From Thermoflavifilum sp. (lineage in GTDB: Bacteria > Bacteroidota > Bacteroidia > Chitinophagales > Chitinophagaceae): a stretch of 64,000 bases of DNA. The position numbers and the translations under genes are program-made. Below are positions 50,991 through 64,000 of the stretch, piece by piece. The stretch is taken from contig JAIMAQ010000001.1 in assembly GCA_023511875.1 (NCBI GenBank), positions 186,001-250,000 on the forward strand, written 5' to 3'. Under the pieces are notes generated by a model that saw only the letters and a program-made list of their open reading frames with translations, was not told where the DNA came from and did not search any database. The stretch's first letter is position 1; every line of letters begins with the position of its first letter.

Positions 50991-51029
50991 GAACAAGAGA
51001 TTTAATGTAAAACAACAAAGGAAAAAAAT

Positions 51030-51124
51030 GGCAAGTTGCTTACATCGCACCGCTGCGACCGCCTACCCTTGCTGCATTCCTGCCCTGGGGGAGTTCAGCA
51101 GGAGCTGGTCGTGTAAGTCTTGCC
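51030..51124 (-). ncRNA. ffs: signal recognition particle RNA (small, 4.5S-type)
   Basis: On the minus strand the conserved helix 8 core is visible: 'CCCCCAGGGCAGGAATGCAG' leading into 'CAAGGG', with the SRP54-binding GGAA-like region. The outer stem is made by GGCAAG at 51124-51119 and CTTGCC at 51035-51030, plus CTTACA/TGTAAG. This is about 95 bases, the size of small bacterial SRP RNA. A -7 promoter box is just upstream. Confidence 0.88.
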
Positions 51125-51129
51125 ATATG

Positions 51130-51137
51130 CAAAGTTA
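51130..51137 (-). promoter_or_regulatory. -7 promoter box of the SRP RNA gene
   Basis: TAACTTTG on the minus strand matches TAnnTTTG and ends 6 bases before the predicted first base of the RNA. Confidence 0.65.
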
Positions 51138-51358
51138 AGCAATTCTTTCCAGGTTTATCAGAAAATGATACAGGGCATATGTTGCATGTAACTTTTTCAT
51201 TGAAATTGATCTATCATACTGGCTAAAAACAGCTTTCATGAAGCATGCCAATGCATATCTATGCCAGGAATAACAGCTAAACATGCCCCAATGAATGGTA
51301 TGAGATACTCATTGCCTACTTAAACTGAGTTTCAAACGTAAAAAATAAAATAAATGTT
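51138..51358. other. intergenic region between SRP RNA and his leader
   Basis: About 220 bases of AT-rich sequence with no open frame of note, no strong hairpin and no repeat. The part just before 51359 should hold the -33 element of the his promoter, but none is clear. Confidence 0.5.
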
Positions 51359-51366
51359 TATTTTTG
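51359..51366 (+). promoter_or_regulatory. -7 promoter box of the his operon
   Basis: TATTTTTG matches TAnnTTTG, 19 bases before the ATG of the His-rich leader peptide. Confidence 0.6.
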
Positions 51367-51385
51367 CGAGCAGAAAACTAAACGT

Positions 51386-51442
51386 ATGAAACGGCATGTA
51401 CATCATCACGTGGCTAACTTCTCTCCGGGGACGCCAAGATGA
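51386..51442 (+). CDS. histidine operon leader peptide
   Basis: An 18-codon open frame coding MKRHVHHHVANFSPGTPR, with four His among residues 4-8 (CAT GTA CAT CAT CAC, 51395-51409). It is placed after a -7 box and before an intrinsic terminator and hisG. This is the classic design of a his attenuator: a ribosome slowed at the His codons leaves the distal part of the leader (51425-51435) free to pair with the terminator's upstream arm. It is too short for usual gene callers. Confidence 0.85.
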   Translation: MKRHVHHHVANFSPGTPR

Positions 51443-51502
51443 GGTACATGCATGTTTGCTAAAAATGTACAAAGGCTTACCCGGTGTGGTAAGCCTTTTT
51501 TG
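51425..51502 (+). promoter_or_regulatory. his operon attenuator (antiterminator and terminator)
   Basis: Terminator: 11-base perfect stem 51471-51481 / 51488-51498 with loop CGGTGT, then a run of T. Antiterminator candidate: CCGGG and GCC at 51425-51435 pair with GGC and CCCGG at 51474-51484, which removes the terminator's 5' arm. A second short inverted pair, GTACAT at 51444-51449 and ATGTAC at 51465-51470, flanks the gap. A ribosome at the leader stop (51440-51442) would cover the antiterminator segment and allow termination. Confidence 0.78.
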
Positions 51503-51525
51503 TTATAGATACAAATGATAAAACG

Positions 51526-52386
51526 ATGTCTGTTAAACTCAAGATTGCCATCCAAAAATCGGGGCGCCTCCATGAAGATTCCGTTAAACTGCTGCGCGAA
51601 TGCGGCATAGATTTGCACAATGGATGGAATAAACTCAAAACAGAGGCCAGCAATTTCCCAATGGAAATTTATTTTTTACGTGATGATGACATCCCACAAT
51701 ATGTTGAAGACCGCGTGGCCGACATAGGAATTGTGGGGAAAAATTTAATCTTGGAAAAAGAAAAACACGTGCAAATTGTCGAACAATTAGAATTTGGGAA
51801 ATGCCGGCTATCTTTAGCCATCCCTAAAGATCAAAATTATACCAGCATTCAAGATTTCCAACACAAACGCATTGCTACCAGCTATCCACATATCCTCTCT
51901 ACTTACCTTCAACAACATCAAGTCCAAGCTGAGATCCACGAAATCAGCGGTTCTGTGGAAATAGCTCCCAGCATTGGCCTTGCCGATGCCATCTGTGATC
52001 TGGTAGACAGTGGTTCTACCTTGTTTATGAATGGCCTGCGTGAGGTGGAAACCATCTTACATTCAAACGCAGTATTGATCAGTAGCATGCAACTCAACAG
52101 CGAAGTACAAGACTTATTGGAGCAATTACGTTTTCGCATTCAAGCCGTAAAAAAAGCCCAGCACAATAAATACATTTTGCTCAATGCGCCCAACGATAAA
52201 CTGCCAGAAATCATCAAGCTACTTCCCGGCATGAAAAGCCCTACTATCTTGCCCCTGGCCGAGTCGGGCTGGAGCTCGGTGCATGCTGTAATCAATGAAA
52301 ACGATTTCTGGCATATTATCGAAAGCTTAAAAAAACATGGTGCACAAGGCATTTTGGTGGTGCCTATCGAAAAAATGATCGTTTAA
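51526..52386 (+). CDS. hisG: ATP phosphoribosyltransferase (long form)
   Basis: The first and committed histidine enzyme, joining PRPP to ATP. The 286-residue length is the long HisG type, with a C-terminal regulatory ACT-like domain (about 215-286, 'MKSPTILPLAESGWSSVHAVI') that senses histidine, so no HisZ is needed. Catalytic motifs are 'IAIQKSGRLHEDSVKLL', 'DIGIVGKNLI' and the PRPP loop 'ADAICDLVDSGSTLFMNGL'. It follows the his attenuator and is followed after 4 bases by hisD. Confidence 0.96.
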   Translation: MSVKLKIAIQKSGRLHEDSVKLLRECGIDLHNGWNKLKTEASNFPMEIYFLRDDDIPQYVEDRVADIGIVGKNLILEKEKHVQIVEQLEFGKCRLSLAIPKDQNYTSIQDFQHKRIATSYPHILSTYLQQHQVQAEIHEISGSVEIAPSIGLADAICDLVDSGSTLFMNGLREVETILHSNAVLISSMQLNSEVQDLLEQLRFRIQAVKKAQHNKYILLNAPNDKLPEIIKLLPGMKSPTILPLAESGWSSVHAVINENDFWHIIESLKKHGAQGILVVPIEKMIV

Positions 52387-52390
52387 CGGA

Positions 52391-53707
52391 ATGATATGTA
52401 AAAACATGTGGACATTTATTCGACATCCCGACCCTTCGCAATGGCATCAATGGTTGCAACGACCTCATGCCGATGAAACAGTAATTCGCCAGCGAGTAGC
52501 AGATATCGTTGAACAGGTGCGCGAGCACGGCGATAAAGCGTTGTGTGACCTTACCGAGGCCATTGACGGCATCCGCCTGGCTCAATTGGCTTATCCTGTA
52601 CCCAACACAGATGTTGCTGCCCAAGCATTGCCTAGCGATTTGCGGGAAGCAATCGACTTAGCCATGGCCAATATTCGCCGTTTTCACCAGGCTCAACTAT
52701 GTACAGAGCCCCACGTAGAAACCATGCCCGGTGTACGATGCTGGCAGAGAGCCCTACCTATTGAACGTGTGGGTTTATACATTCCCGGCGGTTCTGCACC
52801 TTTGTTTTCCACCTTGATGATGCTCGCCGTGCCCGCCCGTATTGCTGGATGTCGGGAGCTAGTAGTATGTTCTCCACCTATGAAAAACGGCGAGCTGCAC
52901 CCCGCACTTCTATATGTAGCCTCTTTATGCGATATTTCCAACATTTATCGGGTAGGTGGGGCTCAAGCCATTGCTGCCATGGCTTTTGGCACTGCTTCTA
53001 TCCCCCGAGTAGATAAAATCTTCGGGCCAGGCAATCGCTACGTTACCCTCGCCAAGCAACTTTTGCAACGAGAAGGAGTAGCCATCGATATGCCAGCAGG
53101 ACCTTCGGAAGTGGCCTTGGTAGGCGATCGTAGCTGTCCGCCTGCTTTTGCCGCAGCCGACTTACTCTCACAAGCTGAGCACGGGCCCGATAGCCAAGTC
53201 ATACTGGTAAGTACCGATGAAACCTGGATGACCGAGGTGGAAGCCTGCCTTCAAAAACAACTCGCAGCGCTTCCCCGACAAGAAATAGCTAGGCAGGCCC
53301 TTAGCCATAGCAAGGCTTTTTTGGTGCAAGATACCTCTCAAGCCATGGCCCTTATCAACGCTTATGCCCCAGAACACTTAATCTTGGCCTGCAGCCATGC
53401 CCGTATGCTAGCCGAGCAAGTACAACATGCCGGTTCGGTATTTATAGGTTGTTATACCCCCGAAAGTGTGGGCGACTACGCTTCTGGTACCAACCATACC
53501 TTGCCTACCTCAGGCTATGCACGAGCCTGGAGTGGTGTGCATGTAGATAGCTTCTTGAAAAAAATTTCCTTTCAAGAGCTTAGCCCTCAAGGCCTACAAG
53601 CCATTGGCCCTGCAGTGGAGATACTAGCCACTGCTGAGGGTCTTTGGGCACACAAGCAGGCAGTCTCTATCAGACTACATCATTTGCAAACGCAACAAAA
53701 CCCATAA
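52391..53707 (+). CDS. hisD: histidinol dehydrogenase
   Basis: The last histidine enzyme, oxidising histidinol to histidine in two NAD steps with zinc. The 438-residue product shows 'VGLYIPGGSAPLFSTLMMLAVPA', 'VDKIFGPGNRYVTLAKQLL', 'IDMPAGPSEVALVGD', 'LLSQAEHGPDSQVIL' (zinc ligands) and 'VGDYASGTNHTLPTSGYARAWSGV'. An alternative ATG five codons in (52406) is equally plausible. It lies 4 bases after hisG and is followed closely by hisC. Confidence 0.96.
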   Translation: MICKNMWTFIRHPDPSQWHQWLQRPHADETVIRQRVADIVEQVREHGDKALCDLTEAIDGIRLAQLAYPVPNTDVAAQALPSDLREAIDLAMANIRRFHQAQLCTEPHVETMPGVRCWQRALPIERVGLYIPGGSAPLFSTLMMLAVPARIAGCRELVVCSPPMKNGELHPALLYVASLCDISNIYRVGGAQAIAAMAFGTASIPRVDKIFGPGNRYVTLAKQLLQREGVAIDMPAGPSEVALVGDRSCPPAFAAADLLSQAEHGPDSQVILVSTDETWMTEVEACLQKQLAALPRQEIARQALSHSKAFLVQDTSQAMALINAYAPEHLILACSHARMLAEQVQHAGSVFIGCYTPESVGDYASGTNHTLPTSGYARAWSGVHVDSFLKKISFQELSPQGLQAIGPAVEILATAEGLWAHKQAVSIRLHHLQTQQNP

Positions 53708-53710
53708 AAC

Positions 53711-54781
53711 GTGTTTGATCTGCAACGACTAGTAAGGCCTAATATCTGGAAATTAATCCCTTACTCCTCCGCCCGCGATGAATTTTCTGGCGAGGCAAAA
53801 ATTTTCCTCGATGCCAATGAAAACAGCTGGGGATCTCCACTCGGCAAACAGTATCACCGCTATCCCGACCCATTGCAACACAAGCTAAAAGACAAGATAG
53901 CTAGATTAAAACATATACCTGCCGAACAAATTTTTCTAGGCAACGGCAGCGATGAATGCATTGATCTATGTTTGCGCATCTTTTGTGAACCTCAGCAAGA
54001 TGAAATCATCATCTGCGAGCCTACCTATGGTATGTATGAAGTGAGTGCCTCTATTCAAGATGTTGTGGTGCGTCGAATACCACTATTGCCTAGTTTTCAG
54101 TTAGATGTGCCGAGCATACTCCAAGCCGTTGGGCCACATACAAAACTCATCATCTTATGTTCGCCCAACAACCCAACTGGCAACTGTTTCCTTTCACCAG
54201 ATATAGAAACTTTATTGACCCATTTTTCTGGAATCGTAGCCATTGATGAAGCCTATATCGATTTTGCTCATCAGCCAGGATTTTTACAACGACTCCATGA
54301 GTTTCCTAATCTCATCATTTGGCAAACTTTTTCCAAAGCTTGGGGCTTAGCTGGATTGCGGCTGGGCATGGCTTTCGCTTCTGTTGAAATCATACAGCTG
54401 TATAACAAGGTCAAATATCCATACAACATTAGCCAACTCACTCAGGATGCCGTTTGGCAAGCATTAGATCAACACGAGCTTGTACAATCGAGAATTCAAC
54501 AAATCATTCATCAACGCGAGCAATTGTCTAAGGCATTACAACAGTTAACTATTGTGGAAAAAGTTTATCCTAGTGAAGCCAACTTCGTATTGGTAAAAAT
54601 GCAACAAGCACAGCAGGTGTTTGCCTACTTATTGCAAAAAGGTATTGTGGTTCGCGATCGCAGTCGGGTGATTCTTTGTGAAGACAGCTTACGAATCACG
54701 GTAGGCCGACCAGAAGAAAATGAAGCCTTGCTGGCAGAATTGCACGCTTATGCACAACAAATAGTTTCTTCATCCAATTAA
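53711..54781 (+). CDS. hisC: histidinol-phosphate aminotransferase
   Basis: A 356-residue PLP aminotransferase acting before the phosphatase step. It starts with GTG at 53711, 3 bases after hisD. Family blocks are 'FLDANENSWGSPL', 'IFLGNGSDECIDL', 'ILCSPNNPTGNCF', 'VAIDEAYIDFA' and the PLP-Lys (about residue 209) in 'TFSKAWGLAGLRLG'. The C-terminal Arg is in 'LCEDSLRITVGRPEEN'. Normal length; hisB follows after 15 bases. Confidence 0.95.
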   Translation: MFDLQRLVRPNIWKLIPYSSARDEFSGEAKIFLDANENSWGSPLGKQYHRYPDPLQHKLKDKIARLKHIPAEQIFLGNGSDECIDLCLRIFCEPQQDEIIICEPTYGMYEVSASIQDVVVRRIPLLPSFQLDVPSILQAVGPHTKLIILCSPNNPTGNCFLSPDIETLLTHFSGIVAIDEAYIDFAHQPGFLQRLHEFPNLIIWQTFSKAWGLAGLRLGMAFASVEIIQLYNKVKYPYNISQLTQDAVWQALDQHELVQSRIQQIIHQREQLSKALQQLTIVEKVYPSEANFVLVKMQQAQQVFAYLLQKGIVVRDRSRVILCEDSLRITVGRPEENEALLAELHAYAQQIVSSSN

Positions 54782-54796
54782 ATCATTTTTATAGAT

Positions 54797-55939
54797 ATGC
54801 TACCCAAAGTATTGTTTATTGATCGCGACGGCACCCTTATTCAAGAACCTCCTGACCATCAGGTTGACGATTTTTCTAAGCTCAGCTTTGTACCAGGCAT
54901 GCTTCAATACCTGCCCCGCATTGCTCGAGAACTCGATTACGTACTGGTCATGGTTACCAACCAAGATGGGCTGGGTACACCTGTTTTCCCAGAAGAGCAT
55001 TTTTGGCCCATACAAGAGTTTTTAATACGCACCCTTCAAAATGAAGGTGTGCATTTTAGTGATGTATATATCGACCGTTCCCTTCCTGATCAACATCAAC
55101 CCACGCGTAAGCCAGGAACGGGCATGATGGGAAAATACCTCGAGCCGGGAAAATATGATCTAAAGCATTCTTTTGTTATTGGCGACCGAATTACCGATGT
55201 TAAATTTGCGCAAAACATGGGTTGCAGAGCCATCTGGCTTAATGACGGCAATCAGCTAGGCTTTAGAGAAATTTCACCCGAAGAACAAAAAAGTCTATTG
55301 AAAGTCGTGGCGCTAGAAACAACAGATTGGAAGCAGATTTACGCATGGTTAAAAATGGGTGAACGCCGAGTAGAACGACATCGGGTTACTGCTGAAACCG
55401 ATATCCGAGTGAGCTTGAACCTGGATGGAACGGGCAAAGCCGATATTCAAACGGGCATAGGCTTTTTCGATCACCTCTTACACCAAATAGCCCGCCACGG
55501 GCAAATAGATTTAACCATACTTGCCCAAGGCGATTTGCATGTGGATGAACACCATACGATTGAAGATACAGCGATAACCCTGGGAGAGGCCCTACATGAA
55601 GCTTTAGGCAATAAAATGGGCATTGAACGTTACGGATTTTGCTTACCCATGGACGATGCACAAGCACAAGTATTGCTGGATTTTGGAGGAAGAAGTTGGC
55701 TGGTATGGCAAGCCGAATTTCACCGAGAAAAAATTGGAGAAATGCCTACCGAAATGTTTTCACATTTTTTCAAATCACTTGCCGATGCCGCTCATTGCAA
55801 CATCCACGTGCAAGCCAGTGGCGAAAATGAACACCATAAAATTGAAGCGATCTTCAAAGCTTTTGCTAAAGCACTAAAAATGGCCATCAGGCGTGATCCT
55901 GAACGCCAGCTATTGCCTTCTACTAAAGAATTGCTATAA
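54797..55939 (+). CDS. hisB: bifunctional histidinol-phosphatase / imidazoleglycerol-phosphate dehydratase
   Basis: A 380-residue fusion with two domains. The N-terminal HAD phosphatase (about 1-165) begins '[15 protein letters not shown]', with the motif III Asp in '[13 protein letters not shown]'. The C-terminal dehydratase (about 185-380) has the two Mn-binding blocks '[17 protein letters not shown]' and '[18 protein letters not shown]', and '[16 protein letters not shown]'. The fusion is found in enterobacteria and Bacteroidota. In most his operons hisH would come next, but here the trp leader and trp genes follow. Confidence 0.95.
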
Positions 55940-55944
55940 AAAAA

Positions 55945-55976
55945 TTTGCATTTTCCTAAATTGTTGCGCATATTTG
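55945..55976 (+). promoter_or_regulatory. probable promoter of the trp operon
   Basis: TTTG at 55945-55948 and CATATTTG at 55969-55976 (one mismatch to TAnnTTTG) are separated by 20 bases. It lies directly after hisB. No terminator was seen between hisB and this site, so his-promoter readthrough should also reach the trp genes. Confidence 0.5.
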
Positions 55977-55983
55977 CAACGTG

Positions 55984-56064
55984 ATGAACAACATGCACAT
56001 ACATATCGGATGGTGGTGGCACAGAAAGAATCAACCTACGCTGTGTCTCAGCCCCGGCATGTAA
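55984..56064 (+). CDS. tryptophan operon leader peptide
   Basis: A 26-codon open frame with three consecutive Trp codons (TGG x3, 56011-56019) in 'HIGWWWHRKN'. It ends at TAA 56062-56064, ahead of a large terminator hairpin and trpE. An internal ATG at 55993 could also serve as start. The predicted transcript start from the site at 55969-55976 falls at about 55983, so the leader may be translated from an almost leaderless mRNA or from his-operon readthrough. Confidence 0.85.
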   Translation: MNNMHIHIGWWWHRKNQPTLCLSPGM

Positions 56065-56118
56065 TTGCATGCAGCAAAGATCTAGAAGAAGGCTCGCTGG
56101 ACACAGCGGGCCTTCTTC
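56018..56118 (+). promoter_or_regulatory. trp operon attenuator with 1:2, 2:3 and 3:4 pairings
   Basis: Three exclusive pairings are visible. 1:2 pairs GGCACAG (56018-56024) with CTGTGTC (56041-56047), 7 pairs. 2:3, the antiterminator, pairs 56041-56052 with 56096-56106, 11 pairs with one bulge. 3:4, the terminator, pairs 56085-56099 with 56104-56118, 15 pairs with one G-U and a 4-base loop. Segment 1 abuts the Trp codons, so a stalled ribosome would block 1:2 and favour 2:3. The T run after 3:4 is short (TTT), so termination may be modest. Confidence 0.8.
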
Positions 56119-56159
56119 GTTTAAAGCCTGTGAGATAAAATGCATTTAAACCACATATT

Positions 56160-57569
56160 ATGAAACCTGTTCGTATCCACACACGTGCAAAACGCTTGCT
56201 GGCCGATATTTTCACGCCAGTAGGTATTTATCTGCGTATCCGCGATCGCTATCCAGGAAGCATCTTGCTGGAGAGCACCGATTATCATGCGGCCGATAAT
56301 AGTTTTTCTTTCATCTGTATCAATCCTATTGCGGGCATTGAATTCAGCTCTACCCACACGTTTGAATTCAAGTATCCGTTGGAATCGCCCGAACGACATC
56401 AGGTGAAAGACCCCCAGGAAATGATGAATCGTTTCCAAGAATTTCTCCAACGTTTTCAGTTTAGCGGACAATCGCCCGTGCCCGTCACCGAAGGCATGTT
56501 TGGTTACACGGCTTACGATGCTGTACAATTTTTCGAAAACATTCACCTGCATGCTCCTGCCGACGAATCTATGATCCCGTTAATGCGTTATCGATTTTAT
56601 CAGTATGTGATAGCCATCAATCATTTTAAAGACGAATTATTTCTCTGCGAAAACCAGATCGATGGATTATCTTCCGAATTCGAACAAATTGAAACACTCA
56701 TTCGGCGCAAGGATGTACCCCTATTTCCATTTAAGCGAAATGGAGCAGAACAAGCCGATATGCAAGATGAAGATTACATACACATGGTAGAAAAGGGTAT
56801 AGCACATTGTCATCGAGGAGATGTGTTTCAAATTGTATTGTCGAGAAGCTTTGCCCAACCTTTTTTAGGCGATGAATTTAATGTATATCGGCATCTACGA
56901 TCCATTAACCCTTCTCCATACTTATTTTATTTCGACTATGGAAATTATCGCTTGATGGGCTCTTCACCAGAATCACAACTCATCATACGCAATGGAAAAG
57001 CTACCATTCATCCCATAGCAGGAACCTTCCGCCGAACGGGTGACGACCAGGTCGATGAAGCACTCGCACGCAAATTGGAAAATGATCCCAAAGAAAACGC
57101 AGAACACGTGATGCTGGTAGACTTGGCTAGAAACGACTTAAGCCGCTATGCCCAACATGTAGAAGTAACTTCTTATCGAAAGGTGCAATACTATTCACAT
57201 GTCATTCATTTGGTAAGTGAAGTCACAGGTCAACTCAATGGCCAAACTAATCCATTTGCATTGTTGGCCGCTACTTTTCCTGCGGGCACTTTATCGGGTG
57301 CACCTAAATACAAGGCTATGCAATTGATCGATGAGATCGAAAAAACGGCCAGAAGTTATTATGGCGGTTGCATTGGCTTTGTAGGATTCAATGGCGATTT
57401 TAACCATGCCATTATGATTCGCACCTTGCTCAGCAAAAACAATGTATTGTATTACCGCGGCGGAGCTGGCATCGTTGCTCGATCCATACCCACTTCAGAA
57501 GTGCAAGAAGTGAACAACAAACTCAATGCCTTGCGAGTAGCTATTGAAAGTGCCGAACAAATACATTGA
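56160..57569 (+). CDS. trpE: anthranilate synthase component I
   Basis: A 469-residue chorismate-using enzyme. The N-terminal regulatory part has the tryptophan-binding segment 'GSILLESTDYH' (LLES motif of TrpE), and the C-terminal catalytic part contains 'VFQIVLSRSFAQPF', 'PSPYLFYFDYGNYRLMGSSPE', 'IHPIAGTFRRTGD', 'EHVMLVDLARNDLSRY' and 'PAGTLSGAPKYKAMQLIDEIE'. The LLES motif argues for feedback inhibition by tryptophan and for TrpE over PabB. It follows the trp attenuator and is followed by trpG after 24 bases. Confidence 0.95.
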   Translation: MKPVRIHTRAKRLLADIFTPVGIYLRIRDRYPGSILLESTDYHAADNSFSFICINPIAGIEFSSTHTFEFKYPLESPERHQVKDPQEMMNRFQEFLQRFQFSGQSPVPVTEGMFGYTAYDAVQFFENIHLHAPADESMIPLMRYRFYQYVIAINHFKDELFLCENQIDGLSSEFEQIETLIRRKDVPLFPFKRNGAEQADMQDEDYIHMVEKGIAHCHRGDVFQIVLSRSFAQPFLGDEFNVYRHLRSINPSPYLFYFDYGNYRLMGSSPESQLIIRNGKATIHPIAGTFRRTGDDQVDEALARKLENDPKENAEHVMLVDLARNDLSRYAQHVEVTSYRKVQYYSHVIHLVSEVTGQLNGQTNPFALLAATFPAGTLSGAPKYKAMQLIDEIEKTARSYYGGCIGFVGFNGDFNHAIMIRTLLSKNNVLYYRGGAGIVARSIPTSEVQEVNNKLNALRVAIESAEQIH

Positions 57570-57593
57570 TTGATTTCAATAATTCTATGCTAT

Positions 57594-58163
57594 ATGCGTA
57601 TTCTGGTATTTGATAATTACGATTCGTTTACCTACAACCTGGTTCATCTGGTTAGAAAATTAACCACTGATCGAGTAGATGTATTCCGCAATGATGAGCT
57701 TCCCTTAGAAAAAGTAGCGGTTTATGATAAGATCATTCTTTCCCCCGGCCCGGGTATCCCCAAGGAAGCCGGATTATTGCTTCCACTCATTCGTGAATAT
57801 GCATCTTCAAAATCTATATTGGGTGTGTGTTTGGGGCATCAGGCTATTGGAGAGGCCTTTGGCGCCAACTTGCTCAACCTTTCGCAGGTATATCATGGAG
57901 TAGCCACCCCCGTGTACATCTTGCGACAAGATTTGCCCATCTTCCAGGGATTGCCCGAGAGCATCCAGGCGGGCCGTTATCATTCATGGGTGGTAGATGA
58001 AAACGGACTTCCTGATTGTTTACAAATCACTGCACGCGACGACCAGCAATACATCATGGGCCTGCATCATACCCAGTACGATGTTACTGGAGTGCAATTT
58101 CATCCAGAAAGCGTGCTCACGCCCCATGGAGAACGAATGATGGCCAACTGGCTGAAAGCTTAA
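57594..58163 (+). CDS. trpG: anthranilate synthase component II (glutamine amidotransferase)
   Basis: A 189-residue class I glutamine amidotransferase that feeds ammonia to TrpE. The start at 57594 gives the standard 'MRILVFDNYDSFTYNLVHLV'. The nucleophile Cys79 is in 'LGVCLGHQAIGEAFGA', with the His/Glu pair in 'VQFHPESVLTPHGE'. It is not fused to TrpD. It could also serve aminodeoxychorismate synthesis (PabA), but its place between trpE and trpD settles the main role. Confidence 0.95.
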   Translation: MRILVFDNYDSFTYNLVHLVRKLTTDRVDVFRNDELPLEKVAVYDKIILSPGPGIPKEAGLLLPLIREYASSKSILGVCLGHQAIGEAFGANLLNLSQVYHGVATPVYILRQDLPIFQGLPESIQAGRYHSWVVDENGLPDCLQITARDDQQYIMGLHHTQYDVTGVQFHPESVLTPHGERMMANWLKA

Positions 58164-58193
58164 ACCAATATTATCCTTTTAAACTGCATACTC

Positions 58194-59192
58194 ATGAAAC
58201 AGATTTTGCAATATCTATTTGACCACAAAACTTTAGACAGAAACACGGCCAAAGACATCCTGCTCAACATTTCAAAAGGTGCATACAACGAAAGTGAGCT
58301 GGCCGCCTTTATGACCGTTTTCCTGATGCGTAGCATCACAGTAGAAGAGCTTAGCGGATTCCGCGAAGCCCTACTGGAGCTCTGCTTACCTGTAGACCTC
58401 AACGGCATTCCGGTGCTCGATATTGTGGGAACGGGTGGTGATGGTAAAAACACGTTCAATATTTCTACAATTGCATGCTTCTTAGTAGCTGGGGCGGGGC
58501 AAAAAGTAGCCAAACACGGTAACTATGGCGTATCGTCGATCACGGGTGCATCCAACGTCATGGAAGCCTTAGGATATAAGCTAAAAAACAATGTTGACCA
58601 ACTCAAACGTGAACTCGAACGAGCCAATATTTGTTTTCTCCATGCTCCTTTGTTTCACCCAGCTTTAAAAAATGTTGCCAACGTGCGTAAACAATTGGGC
58701 GTGCGTACCTTTTTCAATCTGTTGGGCCCATTGGTCAACCCTGCATTCCCCGCCTACCAATTTATTGGTGTATACAACTTAGAACTAGCCCGTACCTATC
58801 AATACCTATATCAGCAAACCGATAAACGATATGCCATTGTTCATAGCCTGGATGGATACGACGAGATCTCTTTAACAGGCGATACAATGGTAATTACGCA
58901 TGAAGGCCAGCAGCTGCAAACACCAGAACAACTGGGTAAAAGATCTGTACACCCAACAGACTTATATGGCGGAGGTTCGGTTGAAGAATCTGTGAAATTG
59001 TTTGTAAAAATTCTCAAAGGAGAAGGAAGCTGGGCTCAACATGCTGTGGTACTGGCCAATGCGGCCATGGGCTTGTATTGTTGCGGTGCCTATCCAAGCT
59101 ATGAAGATTGCTATCAGGCAGCGGTAGAATCGCTCGAAAGCGGAGCAGGCTATCGATCCCTGCAAACATTACTCGAAATGCAGAAAAACTAA
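58194..59192 (+). CDS. trpD: anthranilate phosphoribosyltransferase
   Basis: A 332-residue enzyme joining PRPP to anthranilate. Signature blocks are 'DIVGTGGDGKNTFNISTIACFLVAGAGQKVAKHGNYGVSS' (PRPP and anthranilate loops), 'FFNLLGPLVNPAFP' and 'VHSLDGYDEISLTGDT'. The active-site 'GTGGDG' and 'KHGN' elements are intact. Length is normal. It uses the same PRPP pool as HisG, encoded in the same gene cluster. Confidence 0.96.
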   Translation: MKQILQYLFDHKTLDRNTAKDILLNISKGAYNESELAAFMTVFLMRSITVEELSGFREALLELCLPVDLNGIPVLDIVGTGGDGKNTFNISTIACFLVAGAGQKVAKHGNYGVSSITGASNVMEALGYKLKNNVDQLKRELERANICFLHAPLFHPALKNVANVRKQLGVRTFFNLLGPLVNPAFPAYQFIGVYNLELARTYQYLYQQTDKRYAIVHSLDGYDEISLTGDTMVITHEGQQLQTPEQLGKRSVHPTDLYGGGSVEESVKLFVKILKGEGSWAQHAVVLANAAMGLYCCGAYPSYEDCYQAAVESLESGAGYRSLQTLLEMQKN

Positions 59193-59214
59193 TTCCTGCT
59201 TAACTTGCAACATC

Positions 59215-60021
59215 ATGGCTTCCATCTTACCACGCATCGTCGCACAGAAACGCATAGAAATTGCCCGTAAAAAATTGGCACTACCTCTTGAGGTCATCCA
59301 ACGTATGCCTTTCATGAGCAGGCAAGGATTATCTCTACGCAAAGCGCTACTCAGCCCCGGCGCCAGTGGTATTATTGCCGAACACAAACGCAAATCGCCT
59401 TCAAAAGGCTTTTTTGCCTCTACCCTTAGCTTAGAAGAAATTGTTGCTGGCTATGCTCATGAAGGTGCAACGGGGTTAAGCATTCTCACCGATGTACATT
59501 TCTTCGGCGGCACGCTAGAAGACCTGCTAGCAGCACGCAACTGTGCATCATTGCCCATCTTGAGAAAGGATTTTATCGTTGACCCCTATCAACTATACGA
59601 AGCCAAAGCCTTCGGTGCCGATGTGGTATTGCTCATTGCTGAATGCTTACAAGCAGAAGAAGTGAAAAAATTATCGCAGCTCGCTCATAAGCTGGGCATG
59701 GAAGTACTCATGGAAATACATCACCGCGAGCAACTCGATAAGCTTTGCGATGAAATAGATATGGTAGGCATCAACAACAGAGATTTGAACACATTTCAAG
59801 TAGATGTCAATCGCTCATTCGAGCTAGTTTCACTTGTTCCCCCAGAAAAGCCAGTCATTGCCGAAAGCGGTATTCATGATCCTCAGCTGATCACTGCACT
59901 TCGGGAAGCGGGCTGCAAAGGTTTTTTAATAGGAGAAAGATTTATGCACCAACCCAATCCCGTACAAGCTTTTCAACATTTTACTACTCAACTCAAAAAT
60001 CTTTCTACACATGCTTCCTAA
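59215..60021 (+). CDS. trpC: indole-3-glycerol-phosphate synthase
   Basis: A 268-residue (beta/alpha)8 enzyme, separate from TrpF. Family blocks are 'IIAEHKRKSPSKGFF' (catalytic Glu/Lys), 'GATGLSILTDVHFFGGTLEDL', 'LPILRKDFIVDPYQLYEAKAFGADVVLLI', 'VGINNRDLNTFQVDVN' and 'VIAESGIHDPQLI'. It overlaps trpF by 11 bases, so translation is likely coupled. Confidence 0.96.
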   Translation: MASILPRIVAQKRIEIARKKLALPLEVIQRMPFMSRQGLSLRKALLSPGASGIIAEHKRKSPSKGFFASTLSLEEIVAGYAHEGATGLSILTDVHFFGGTLEDLLAARNCASLPILRKDFIVDPYQLYEAKAFGADVVLLIAECLQAEEVKKLSQLAHKLGMEVLMEIHHREQLDKLCDEIDMVGINNRDLNTFQVDVNRSFELVSLVPPEKPVIAESGIHDPQLITALREAGCKGFLIGERFMHQPNPVQAFQHFTTQLKNLSTHAS

Positions 60022-60676
60022 ACGGCTGCACATCAAGGTATGTGGGTTCACCCAGCTCCACGAGCTACCCATGCTGGAAGCCATGGGCGTGGATTTTTTC
60101 GGAATGATCTTCTACCCTCGCTCACCTCGTTATATTCGCAACTTTTCTCAGCAGCAAGCAGCCAGGGCCTATACAGGATCGATGAAGAAAGTAGGTGTAT
60201 TTGTAGATGCACCATTGTCTGAAATCTGGCGGGCAGCAGATGAATATGGGTTACAGGTCATCCAATTGCATGGAGAAGAGCCCCCCGAATGGGGTGAGAA
60301 GCTGCGTGAACAAGGCTTTCAAGTAATCAAAACCTTTCATTTGCCTGTTCAATCTCCATCTTCGCCTATAAGCTTTCCCGATATACGAGTTTATGAAACG
60401 GCTTGTGATTATGTGCTATTCGATACGGCTTCGATGAAAAAAGGCGGTAGTGGACAACGCTTCGCTTGGCAAGCGCTACAAGCTTATGCCGGCAATAAGC
60501 CTTTTTTCTTGAGCGGGGGCATTTCACCCAACCATGTAACCGATATCTGGGCAATCGATCATCCGCAATTGTTTGCAGTAGATATCAATAGTCGGTTTGA
60601 AATAGCCCCAGGAATCAAAAATTTAGAACTCATCAAACAATTCATATGTCAATTGAATATCGTGTCGGAGGCATAG
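60011..60676 (+). CDS. trpF: phosphoribosylanthranilate isomerase
   Basis: A 221-residue (beta/alpha)8 isomerase carrying out an Amadori rearrangement on the tryptophan path. The catalytic Cys is in '[15 protein letters not shown]' and the catalytic Asp in '[20 protein letters not shown]', with the phosphate loop '[15 protein letters not shown]' and C-terminal '[19 protein letters not shown]'. Because TrpF is present, the downstream HisA need not be a dual PriA enzyme. It overlaps trpC by 11 and trpB by 31 bases. Confidence 0.95.
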
Positions 60677-61905
60677 CCCCTTCTATATTACGGCTGGCCA
60701 AGCCTGGACAATATCAGGTTGATGAAAAAGGCTACTACGGCCAGTTTGGCGGAGCATTCATCCCAGAAATGCTGTATCGCAATGTAGCAGAGCTTCGGGA
60801 AAAATATCTCACCATCATGCAAGAGCCCGAGTTCCAACGAGAATTTACCCAGCTGCTTCGCGATTACGTAGGTCGCCCTTCTCCATTATATCTGGCTCGC
60901 AGACTTTCCGAAAAGTATGGTGCGCAGATTTTTCTCAAACGAGAAGATCTCAACCATACTGGCGCGCATAAAATCAACAACACCATTGGGCAAATCTTAT
61001 TGGCTCAACGCTTAGGCAAGAAGCGCATTATTGCTGAAACGGGTGCCGGGCAACATGGGGTAGCCACGGCAACGGTATGCGCCCTCATGGGGATGGAATG
61101 CGTGGTGTATATGGGAGAGCTTGATATGCAACGTCAAGCGCCTAACGTAGCACGTATGCGCATGTTGGGAGCACAAGTGATCCCGGCCATGAGCGGTAGC
61201 CGCACCTTAAAAGATGCCACCAACGAGGCCATACGCGATTGGGTGAATCATCCAGAAGATACTCATTACATCATTGGCTCTGTAGTGGGGCCACATCCCT
61301 ACCCCGACATGGTAGCCCGCTTCCAATCGGTCATCAGTGCGGAAATCCGACAACAACTGCTCGAGAAAACCGGATCGGAACTGCCCACTCATGTGCTGGC
61401 CTGTGTGGGCGGAGGCAGCAATGCGGCTGGAGCATTTTATCATTTCTTAGACCATATATCGGTACAGCTCATTGCCGTAGAAGCCGCGGGAGAAGGCATC
61501 AACAGCGGGCGATCGGCTGCAACTACCGTGCTCGGGCGGCCTGGCGTGATCCATGGGAGCAAAACATTGCTCATGCAAACCGACGACGGACAAATCATTG
61601 AGCCTTATTCCCTTTCGGCCGGATTAGATTACCCAGGCATAGGTCCACTCCATGCACACCTGCACCAAACAGGCAGAGCTACTTATCTACAGGCCACCGA
61701 CCAGGAAGCGCTCGACGCCGCATTTGAGCTAACTCAGCTGGAAGGCATTATCCCCGCACTGGAAAGCGCTCATGCCTTAGCTAAGCTGAAAGACTTAGAG
61801 CTAAAGCCCGAACATGTCGTGGTGGTTTGCCTCAGCGGGCGCGGCGATAAAGATATGGACACTTATTTACGTTATTTGCCTAAAGAATTCCGTACCGAAA
61901 TCTAA
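60646..61905 (+). CDS. trpB: tryptophan synthase beta chain
   Basis: A 419-residue PLP enzyme joining indole and serine. The PLP Lys109 is in '[15 protein letters not shown]', the catalytic Glu is in '[15 protein letters not shown]', the phosphate loop is '[13 protein letters not shown]', and '[11 protein letters not shown]' is the COMM/tunnel region. It is somewhat longer than E. coli TrpB (397) through its N-terminus. The start lies 31 bases inside trpF; no later ATG before conserved sequence gives a better fit. trpA follows. Confidence 0.96.
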
Positions 61906-61924
61906 ACCTGTTGAATGTGAAACC

Positions 61925-62719
61925 ATGAATCGCATAGATGAATTATTTGCACGGAAACAAAAAAATGTTCTGACCATTTATTTCACTGCTGGATTCCCGC
62001 AGTTGCATGATACTCGACGCATCCTGAAAGCCTTACAAGATGCGGAGGTAGATATGGTAGAAATTGGGATTCCTTTTTCAGATCCCCTGGCCGATGGGCC
62101 CGTGATTCAGCAGAGCAGCAAGCAGGCCTTAGACAATGGCATGTCGCTCCGCTTGTTGTTCAATCAGCTTCGCGATGTGCGCAGAGAAATCCATATTCCA
62201 CTTATCTTGTTTGGATATGTGAATGTGGTCATGCAGTTTGGCATAGAACGCTTTCTGGATACTTGTGCCGAAATAGGAATCGATGGTCTTATCTTACCCG
62301 ATCTTCCTCTCGATGAATTTACACATGAGATGGCTTCGCTTTGCGCAGATCGCCAAGTGCATTTTAGTTTCTTGATTACCCCGGAGACCTCAGAGCCGCG
62401 AATACGGGCGCTCGACGAGGCCAGCAGCGGATTTCTTTATGTAGTATCGTCGTCGTCAACCACCGGGAAGCGAAAAGATCTTTCGGCTATGCAACCATAT
62501 TTTCAGCGCATCCAACAGATGCAGTTGAAAAATCCATTCCTTGTGGGTTTTGGCATTCACGATTCCATGAGCTTTCAGCAAGCATGTCAATATAGCAATG
62601 GAGCCGTTGTTGGCAGCGCTTATATCCGCGCCCTGCAAGAAGTTCATGACAGGAATGTAGAACGGGTCACACGAGATTTTGTGGCATATATTCTTCAGCC
62701 GATCCGTTCAACCTTTTAA
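61925..62719 (+). CDS. trpA: tryptophan synthase alpha chain
   Basis: A 264-residue (beta/alpha)8 protein releasing indole to TrpB. Catalytic Glu46 and Asp57 are in 'MVEIGIPFSDPLADGPVIQ'. The start at 61925 gives 'MNRIDELFARKQKNVLTIYFTAGFP', matching the family; longer frames overlap trpB. 'DGLILPDLPLDE' and 'FLYVVSSSSTTGKRKDL' are further blocks. It closes the trp gene set, and hisH begins 10 bases later on the same strand. Confidence 0.95.
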   Translation: MNRIDELFARKQKNVLTIYFTAGFPQLHDTRRILKALQDAEVDMVEIGIPFSDPLADGPVIQQSSKQALDNGMSLRLLFNQLRDVRREIHIPLILFGYVNVVMQFGIERFLDTCAEIGIDGLILPDLPLDEFTHEMASLCADRQVHFSFLITPETSEPRIRALDEASSGFLYVVSSSSTTGKRKDLSAMQPYFQRIQQMQLKNPFLVGFGIHDSMSFQQACQYSNGAVVGSAYIRALQEVHDRNVERVTRDFVAYILQPIRSTF

Positions 62720-62729
62720 AACGATTGCT

Positions 62730-63323
62730 ATGGATATCGTGATCATTCGTTATCATGCGGGAAACATCCAATCCGTACTCTTTGCGCTGGAGCGTATGGG
62801 ATATCAGGCCGTGGTAACCGACGATGTGGGCCGCATTCGCTCGGCCGACAGGGTGATTTTTCCCGGCGTGGGTGAAGCAAGTTCGGCTATGCAATACTTG
62901 CAAGCAAAAGGCCTTCATACCCTCATCCCTTCGCTTAGCCAGCCAGTTCTGGGCATTTGCCTGGGGATGCAGCTGATGGGCAGCTATTCTGAAGAAAACC
63001 AAACCCCTTGCTTACACATATTTCCCGAACAAGTGAAACGATTCCCTCAAGAGTCTGGATTAAAAGTACCCCAAATAGGTTGGAATCAAATCCATGAACT
63101 GCATTCACCCTTGTTTGAAGGAGTTAAAGAAGGGGCATTCGTATACTTCGTACACAGCTACTACATGCCTCTTAATGAAGCTACTATAGCCAAGGCTTGC
63201 TACGGCATTCCTTATAGCGCAGCCGTACAACAAAATAATTTTTATGCCGTGCAGTTTCATCCCGAAAAATCGGCACAAGTAGGGGAACAGATATTGAGAA
63301 ACTTTATTCATTTGCCTGTATGA
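62730..63323 (+). CDS. hisH: imidazole glycerol phosphate synthase subunit HisH
   Basis: A 197-residue glutamine amidotransferase that gives ammonia to HisF. Cys77 is in 'LGICLGMQLMGSYSEE', the His/Glu pair is in 'VQFHPEKSAQVGEQIL', and 'VIFPGVGEASSAM' is the oxyanion-strand block typical of HisH. The start is 62730, 10 bases after trpA. It overlaps hisA in ATGA, so the two are translationally coupled. It is separated from hisG-D-C-B by the complete trp operon. Confidence 0.95.
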   Translation: MDIVIIRYHAGNIQSVLFALERMGYQAVVTDDVGRIRSADRVIFPGVGEASSAMQYLQAKGLHTLIPSLSQPVLGICLGMQLMGSYSEENQTPCLHIFPEQVKRFPQESGLKVPQIGWNQIHELHSPLFEGVKEGAFVYFVHSYYMPLNEATIAKACYGIPYSAAVQQNNFYAVQFHPEKSAQVGEQILRNFIHLPV

Positions 63324-64000
63324 ACAACTCATTTGTTTTCGATATCATCCCCGCTATAGATCTTATCGATGGGCATTGTGTGAGGCTGCACCAGGGCAAC
63401 TATGAGCAACAAACCCGATACGATGCCGATCCCTTAAGTATAGCTCAAGCATTTGAAGATGCGGGTATACGTCGACTCCATTTGGTGGATCTCGATGGTG
63501 CCCGGCTCAGAAAAGTGCAAAACTGGGCAGTCTTAGAACGTATTGCCCAACATACTCGGCTAATCATCGATTTTGGCGGGGGTATTACACAAGCATCTGA
63601 TATTAGACGAGCACTCGACAGTGGTGCCTCGCTGATTACTGTGGGCAGTATAGCCGTGAAACAACCCAGCTTGTTTCAGCAATGGCTCGAGCAGTTTGGC
63701 CCGGAAAAATTTCTCTTGGGAGCCGATGTGAAAAACGATTATATCGCTATCCATGGCTGGCAAGAAACCAGTTCTGTTTCGATTATCGATTTTTTACATG
63801 TACAATTACAAATGGGAGTGCGTCAAGTGTTTTGTACAGATATAAGCCGCGATGGCACGTTGCGAGGGCCAGCATTCGATCTATATGAAACACTGCTACA
63901 AGCCTTCCCCAGCATCCACCTGATTGCGAGTGGTGGTGTGCGTGATATGCACGATATTACTCAGCTCAGTCGGCTAGGCTTGCGAGGTGTAATCATAGGA
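63320..64000 (+). CDS. hisA: ProFAR isomerase HisA, partial at window end
   Basis: The first 227 codons of HisA, the (beta/alpha)8 isomerase before the IGP synthase step. Family blocks are 'DIIPAIDLIDGHCVRLHQGNY' (Asp at the active site), 'LHLVDLDGA', 'IDFGGGI', 'TVGSIAV', 'FCTDISRDGTLRGP' and 'IASGGVRDMHDI'. The frame is open at 64000, about 15-20 codons short of a normal end. hisF and hisI would be expected next but lie outside the window. Confidence 0.95.
   Translation, partial: MNNSFVFDIIPAIDLIDGHCVRLHQGNYEQQTRYDADPLSIAQAFEDAGIRRLHLVDLDGARLRKVQNWAVLERIAQHTRLIIDFGGGITQASDIRRALDSGASLITVGSIAVKQPSLFQQWLEQFGPEKFLLGADVKNDYIAIHGWQETSSVSIIDFLHVQLQMGVRQVFCTDISRDGTLRGPAFDLYETLLQAFPSIHLIASGGVRDMHDITQLSRLGLRGVIIG

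Follow-up and report, generated by a model that had tools for sequence, protein, structure and literature searches.

A tryptophan leader with an adjacent histidine codon as a probable bivalent attenuator of the trp-his cluster in Thermoflavifilum and its relatives

Introduction

When genes of one amino acid pathway stand behind the attenuator of another, how do they respond to their own product? This question is raised by a stretch of 64,000 nucleotides (nt) of Thermoflavifilum sp., a member of the Chitinophagaceae (assembly GCA_023511875.1, contig JAIMAQ010000001.1, positions 186,001 to 250,000), hereafter the window. From 51526 to 64000, one strand was found to contain hisG, hisD, hisC, hisB, trpE, trpG, trpD, trpC, trpF, trpB, trpA, hisH and hisA, in this order. 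Beyond the window, hisA is followed by hisF, which starts at 64112, and hisI, which starts at 64895. When the window's own assembly (G000) was searched with HisH, one match was obtained. The element studied here, a short leader open reading frame (ORF) followed by a terminator, lies between the stop of hisB (55939) and the start of trpE (56160). An earlier, sequence-only reading had placed hisH and hisA beyond a trp attenuator; this was borne out, and hisF and hisI lie beyond it too. In our study, the leader was found to contain a His codon directly after its Trp codons, and across related loci this codon was found to depend on his genes lying downstream. We read the element as a bivalent Trp and His ribosome-mediated transcription attenuator, with a probability of roughly 0.7. 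This reading rests on the gene order, the leader, the alternative RNA structures obtained by in silico folding and the finding that presence of the His codon depends on his genes behind trp.

The trp leader of the window

The leader peptide reads MNNMHIHIGWWWHRKN and onwards, with a His codon (56020-56022) directly 3' of three Trp codons (56011-56019). Earlier His codons are present at 55996-55998 and 56002-56004. The leader ORF is thus short and rich in product codons, with 3 Trp and 3 His codons among 26, and it contains codons for each of the two amino acids with genes downstream, as a multivalent attenuator does. Both genus relatives (L113 and L114) carry MNFKHVHISWWWHGVKLKSL in the leader. 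The two extra His codons 5' of the Trp run (HIHI or HVHI) are common to all three genus genomes, each with 3 Trp and 3 His codons per leader.

The terminator hairpin had a z score of -8.0 against shuffled sequences, and its stem core was mostly unchanged across 14 aligned sequences of the clade, the window's own included. Folding was carried out with an assumed ribosome footprint. When the footprint was set at the His codon (His13), the RNA free from 56034 and ending at 56108 folded into a 13-bp antiterminator of -28.7 kcal/mol, and a footprint at Trp10 gave the same antiterminator pairs. With a simulated ribosome at the leader stop, the terminator was the sole structure formed; with no ribosome, the protector stem folded and the terminator stood. 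Under the assumed footprint, the leader RNA therefore contained in silico both a terminator and a mutually exclusive antiterminator that is freed by a stalled ribosome.

From these positions, the His codon would be read as a signal. A ribosome waiting at either the Trp run or the adjacent His codon would leave the antiterminator arm free. Low charged tRNA-Trp or low charged tRNA-His would then let the polymerase enter trpEGDCFBA-hisHAFI, and shortage of either amino acid alone is predicted, from the codon position, to relieve termination. If both were plentiful, the ribosome would reach the leader stop, the antiterminator arm would be covered and the terminator would form. The hisHAFI genes would thereby answer to histidine despite their position behind the trp control point.

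The reading supposes a transcript running from the trp promoter to hisI, and the layout is consistent with one. The trpA stop and the hisH start are separated by 10 nt, a gap too small to hold a terminator. No promoter-like site with at most one mismatch within 800 nt upstream of hisH was common to the three genus genomes; the window's own genome had a single one-mismatch hit, at -493 from hisH, and L113 and L114 had none. The short interval that separates hisB from the leader, 44 nt long in the window, holds promoter-like boxes with one mismatch to the consensus, which are kept in the three genus genomes. The consensus used was that of Bacteroidota promoters. Since one-mismatch hits over 13 kb numbered 5, against 2.4 in shuffled sequences, the scan alone is weak, and the argument for the leader promoter is its conservation. 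These conserved boxes had not been mentioned in the sequence-only reading. That reading had named an internal promoter giving constant hisHA expression as one finding that would count against it; no conserved one appeared in this simple consensus scan, itself weak. Together with the layout, this result suggests that hisHAFI probably relies on readthrough of the trp attenuator.

Leaders of related loci

Searches for TrpE covered 147 family genomes, of which 144 gave some match, and 197 genomes of the class, of which 191 did; among named genomes, the best 80 of 579 relatives were taken. Regions were taken for TrpE hits with downstream room and not for every hit. They comprised 80 named loci, the window genome, 85 family hits and 60 further loci (55 outside the family and 5 inside), giving 226 annotated loci. 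After loci with identical TrpE were dropped, 220 were left: 98 were linked (hisH no more than 3 kb behind the final trp gene), 84 were unlinked (without such a hisH) and 38 had unknown linkage. The last group, in which 33 loci have a leader and 25 of these a His, was left out of the counts. A Trp leader was present in all 98 linked and in 82 of the 84 unlinked loci (L197 and L267 are leaderless), so that the scored set consisted of 180 Bacteroidia loci. The automatic rule for choosing the leader gave weight to ATG, to WWW and to the position of WW, not to His. Eighteen leaders outside this rule were set by hand; among several ORFs in L104 (L190), the terminator-adjacent one was chosen. The family sets used for codon and terminator counts include three unlinked Weeksellaceae loci (L109, L111 and L112), which the family-only tree test omits.

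A His codon directly followed the Trp run in 94 of the 98 linked loci, whereas it did so in 26 of the 82 unlinked ones. Within two codons of the Trp run, His was found in 98/98 linked and 28/82 unlinked loci. The other residues at this position in linked loci were Gln (3) and Gly (1), and all four exceptions have a neighbouring His (WWGH, WWWQH, and HWWWQ in two species of one genus). Linked leaders cut to one Trp retain WH (L189 and L104), and L038, which has WRW, contains WRWH. The idea was drawn from an initial batch of loci, in which His was found in 42/43 linked and 9/18 unlinked loci. Two batches were fetched after it had been written down. The family batch gave 47/50 against 10/17 (p=0.0017), and the class batch, which includes five loci of the window's own family (L282-L286), gave 5/5 against 7/47 (p=0.0003). 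In the small family f36, His was found in three linked loci (L229, L276 and L280). There, Leu was found in L288, where hisH is on another contig, and in L289 and L290, where no hisH was found in genomes 84% and 62% complete.

The antiterminator arm was defined as the contiguous pairing to the 5' arm of the terminator. Counted from the first base of the codon that follows the Trp run, it started at a median of 14 nt (quartiles 13-16, 98 linked loci); in the window, where this codon is His, it started at 19 nt. The pairing was better than the shuffled mean in 90/98 linked and 68/78 unlinked loci. With a codon in the A site, a ribosome covers about 12-13 nt downstream. With this footprint and the 14-nt spacing, the codon after the Trp run is about the last stall site that leaves the arm free, and the window is roomier. 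Because a ribosome at the His codon would reach at most to the start of the arm, a His stall should antiterminate as a Trp stall does. An initial duplex search for the arm was noisy (median z -1.7 in linked and -1.4 in unlinked loci) and was replaced by contiguous pairing.

In unlinked leaders, the residues other than His were Gln (22), Leu (15), Ser (6), Pro (3), Asn (3), Arg (3), Phe (2), Lys (1) and Cys (1). Gln, encoded by CAA or CAG, was thus the commonest (22/56), for example in L043, L045, L047, L051, L153 and L193. Glutamine is a substrate of anthranilate synthase, and Gln after the Trp run possibly has a Gln-sensing role or arose by simple drift from CAY.

Phylogenetic analysis

A FastTree tree of 179 TrpE proteins was used (L274 was left off because of its short TrpE read). 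By parsimony, 17 changes of linkage and 21 changes of the His state were found on this tree. A model in which gain and loss of the His codon depend on linkage was compared with independence, and the likelihood-ratio test statistic (LRT) was 33.55 with 2 degrees of freedom. The fitted rate of His-codon loss was 2.88 in unlinked and 0.15 in linked loci. None of 160 null simulations under independence reached the observed value (95% point 7.0, maximum 14.4); the simulations were fitted from one starting point and the observed data from two. The highest LRT among ten other leader features was 8.66, for Thr at +2. The LRT was 24.7 in the family alone, 11.6 outside the family and 22.1 when only CAN codons were considered. 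Under stricter definitions it was 26.9 (strict linkage, gap <150) and 27.3 (strict unlinked). No signal was found for His codons elsewhere in the leader (36/98 linked and 22/81 unlinked loci, LRT 2.5) or for a Trp run of three against linkage (LRT 0.3).

Several results weigh against the bivalent reading. The 26 unlinked leaders with His after the Trp run show that this codon is not unique to linked loci. In the family f16, TGGTGGTGGCAY before trpE was found in 16/24 linked and 15/32 unlinked genomes (p=0.18); this family was scored by presence of TGGTGGTGGCAY only, which misses WW-His leaders, and linkage was judged from coordinates. The score covers 56 of its 71 TrpE genomes; the other 15 were omitted because contigs were fragmented, motif lists were incomplete or the distance was unclear, and one of these (G160, which is L253) is unlinked with His. 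Taken alone, this blunt score lends the bivalent reading no support. Eight linked f16 genomes are without TGGTGGTGGCAY (G404, G395, G414, G394, G386, G408, G393 and G383; their leaders were not read). Two linked f16 loci have a trpA-hisH spacing of about 2.2 kb and may not be one transcript. The test of independent pairs over well-supported branches was underpowered: nine pairs gave means of 3.7 for, 0.0 against and 5.3 ties (median p=0.125), and a few of the 200 pairings contained one pair that opposed the prediction. In the clade of the window, the His codon pairs within the protector stem, and RNA pairing therefore adds a constraint of its own. Finally, in the full-length RNA after a stall, the terminator (-41.3 kcal/mol) was more stable than the best antiterminator intermediate (-29.8 kcal/mol). 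As the terminator is the most stable full-length fold even then, the switch must be kinetic and decided during transcription.

Alternative explanations

The element may instead be a pure Trp attenuator with an incidental His codon, in which high tryptophan limits hisHAFI even in histidine shortage and a leaky terminator softens the effect. This was the model of the sequence-only reading, and we consider it unlikely. It agrees with the position of hisHAFI behind the attenuator with no visible promoter of their own, and with the His codon of some unlinked leaders. The short T run on which it relied is real, since the tail of the window terminator is among the poorest (8 of 209 scored trp leaders, its own included, as low or lower), and most of the 14 aligned clade sequences have the stem end CCTTC and a broken T run. 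The use made of this T run, as a compromise that supplies hisHA, was not supported. The median T run was 6 in linked as in unlinked loci (93 and 40 loci of the family set, p=0.18), and the tail score was 4.86 and 4.83, respectively (family set, p=0.96). Hairpin energy, T run, T count and tail score did not differ between 98 linked and 78 unlinked loci (all p>0.09) or within the family set (all p>0.13). The window hairpin is itself among the strongest (4/209 as strong or stronger, its own included). As the terminators of linked and unlinked loci are alike and the window's hairpin is strong, a leaky compromise is neither needed nor supported. The His codon is retained in relation to the downstream his genes, and the predicted silencing of hisHA by high tryptophan during histidine scarcity is probably wrong.

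It is slightly less credible that pairing of the RNA in the protector stem (TGGCAC/GTGCCA or similar) maintains the His codon and that the codon follows gene order as a side effect of clade history. In 10 of the 14 aligned sequences of the clade, a GTGCC lies downstream as partner of TGGCAC or TGGCAT, the window codon lies inside the stem, and the commonest substitute in unlinked leaders, Gln, also has a codon beginning with CA. The base that distinguishes linked loci is the third one, however. Among CAN codons after the Trp run, this base was C/T rather than A/G in a ratio of 94:3 where hisH was linked and 25:21 where it was not (p=1e-9), and both synonyms serve in linked loci (CAT 73, CAC 21). 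This contrast indicates that the amino acid, and not the first two bases, tracks the gene order. After correction for the tree, loss of the codon depends on genes about 6 kb downstream, and other leader positions gave weaker signals. Pairing thus matters in the window's clade but cannot know of genes so far downstream.

A separate undetected promoter or other control of hisHAFI, under which the trp attenuator hardly matters for these genes and the His codon tunes trp only, is very improbable: promoter scanning by consensus is weak and five linked loci outside the family have 1.0-2.3 kb and other genes between trpA and hisH, but the trpA-hisH gap is <60 nt in 65/98 linked loci, the three genus genomes share no promoter-like site in the 800 nt before hisH, and the link between the His codon and hisH would be left unexplained.

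Comparison with known systems

The bivalent attenuator proposed here resembles several known elements. The multivalent attenuators of enterobacteria (thr and ilvGMEDA) combine, in one leader, codons for several amino acids with one terminator. The window element is alike in this respect; the enterobacterial leaders serve one branched pathway, whereas here the separate Trp and His pathways are joined in one cluster. As in the classic his attenuator, a His-rich leader precedes hisG. Here that leader serves hisGDCB, whereas the late his genes lie behind a second, mixed leader.

The Rfam family RF01692 (Bacteroid-trp) likewise comprises a Trp leader peptide and a terminator before trpE in Bacteroidota, and L216 matches it with 76.2 bits. 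L008, from the window's family, misses the cut-off of 49 with a score of 41.7, and no match at E<=1 was found in the window from 51000 to 64000. As membership takes a score of at least 49 bits, the window leader is not counted in this family, although it would act in a similar manner. The only Rfam match to the window leader was Thr_leader, whose 25.3 bits against a cut-off of 55 were not usable. Neither the Bacteroid-trp row in Table 1 of PMC2864571 nor the Rfam description line states a role for a His codon.

A his cluster with trp genes inserted in it has been described for Thermoflavifilum thermophilum and Filimonas lacunae, with the suggestion that it forms a single operon (PMC8305728); in the accessible text of that paper, the string "attenuat" occurs once, concerning the leader before hisG. 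Beyond those two species, hisH was found in our study behind trp in the 98 linked loci of non-identical TrpE, 29 of them with hisB at most 600 nt upstream of trpE (hisB was not seen in 40). This layout is frequent in the window's family. Both the trp-in-his arrangement and the Trp leader of Bacteroidota are already known. No description of a mixed Trp/His attenuator, or of coupling between a His codon and gene order, was found in the open-access literature, which was the part covered, subscription papers lying outside it.

Other features of the locus

The features of the window are collected in Table 1. A leader ORF with at least three His codons before hisG was present in 40 of the 41 loci having 320 nt of upstream DNA. 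Upstream of the window's His leader, a Bacteroidales small SRP (signal recognition particle) RNA (RF04183, 94.4 bits) was found on the minus strand at 51025-51132, between that leader and an ORF that we take, from its sequence, to encode a transaldolase-like protein.

Table 1. Coordinates of the features of the his-trp-his locus in the window
Feature	Coordinates	Strand	Basis
His leader ORF MKRHVHHHVANFSPGTPR, then stop, 5' of hisG	51386..51442	+	sequence
his terminator-like hairpin, 51471-51481 with 51488-51498, six-T run 51496-51501	51471..51501	+	-15.9 kcal/mol
hisG, hisD, hisC, hisB (bifunctional)	51526..55939	+	ORFs, NCBIfam
Putative Bacteroidota-type promoter-like site TTTG-N20-CAtaTTTG, 5' of trp leader	55945..55976	+	both boxes identical in L113 and L114
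trp leader ORF MNNMHIHIGWWWHRKNQPTLCLSPGM, then stop, 26 codons	55984..56064	+	sequence
Protector hairpin 1:2, 56018-56024 with 56041-56047; 5' arm contains the His codon	56018..56047	+	folding
Antiterminator, 56039-56047 and 56049-56052 with 56096-56108	56039..56108	+	nascent RNA fold to 56108, assumed ribosome footprint masked
trp terminator, 15-bp stem 56085-56099/56104-56118, then GTTT	56085..56122	+	folding, -29.4 kcal/mol
trpE, trpG, trpD, trpC, trpF, trpB, trpA	56160..62719	+	ORFs, NCBIfam
hisH, first his gene downstream of the trp attenuator	62730..63323	+	TIGR01855, 4.2e-63
hisA	63320..64000 (genome end 64108)	+	profile match and genome sequence

Variations of the gene order were found in other genomes. 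In L229, L234, L244, L276 and L280, an ORF of about 337 amino acids (aa) lies between trpA and hisH, in a larger aromatic-histidine cluster outside the family. From its sequence we take it to resemble DAHP synthase, and a further ORF there in L234 and L244 to resemble phenylalanine hydroxylase. In L085, hisB lies 187 nt before trpE, and hisH is not beside trpA but on the same strand about 14 kb past the trpE start; the leader keeps WWWH. Downstream of hisI in L032 (15593-17854), adjacent ORFs of 383 and 371 aa are alike by eye and contain a thioredoxin-like WCGPC motif.

Significance

When two pathways are joined in one operon, a control problem arises, because a regulator that responds to one product shuts off the genes of the other. 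In the loci studied here, the addition of one codon appears to solve it. We think it rather likely that one leader peptide works as an OR-gate that senses two unrelated amino acids and that, throughout Bacteroidota, the His codon is retained by selection as long as his genes follow the attenuator and decays once they move, so that the specificity of the sensor tracks the content of the operon. The natural gains and losses of linkage are a test system, already at hand, for asking whether the codons of an attenuator follow the genes behind it.

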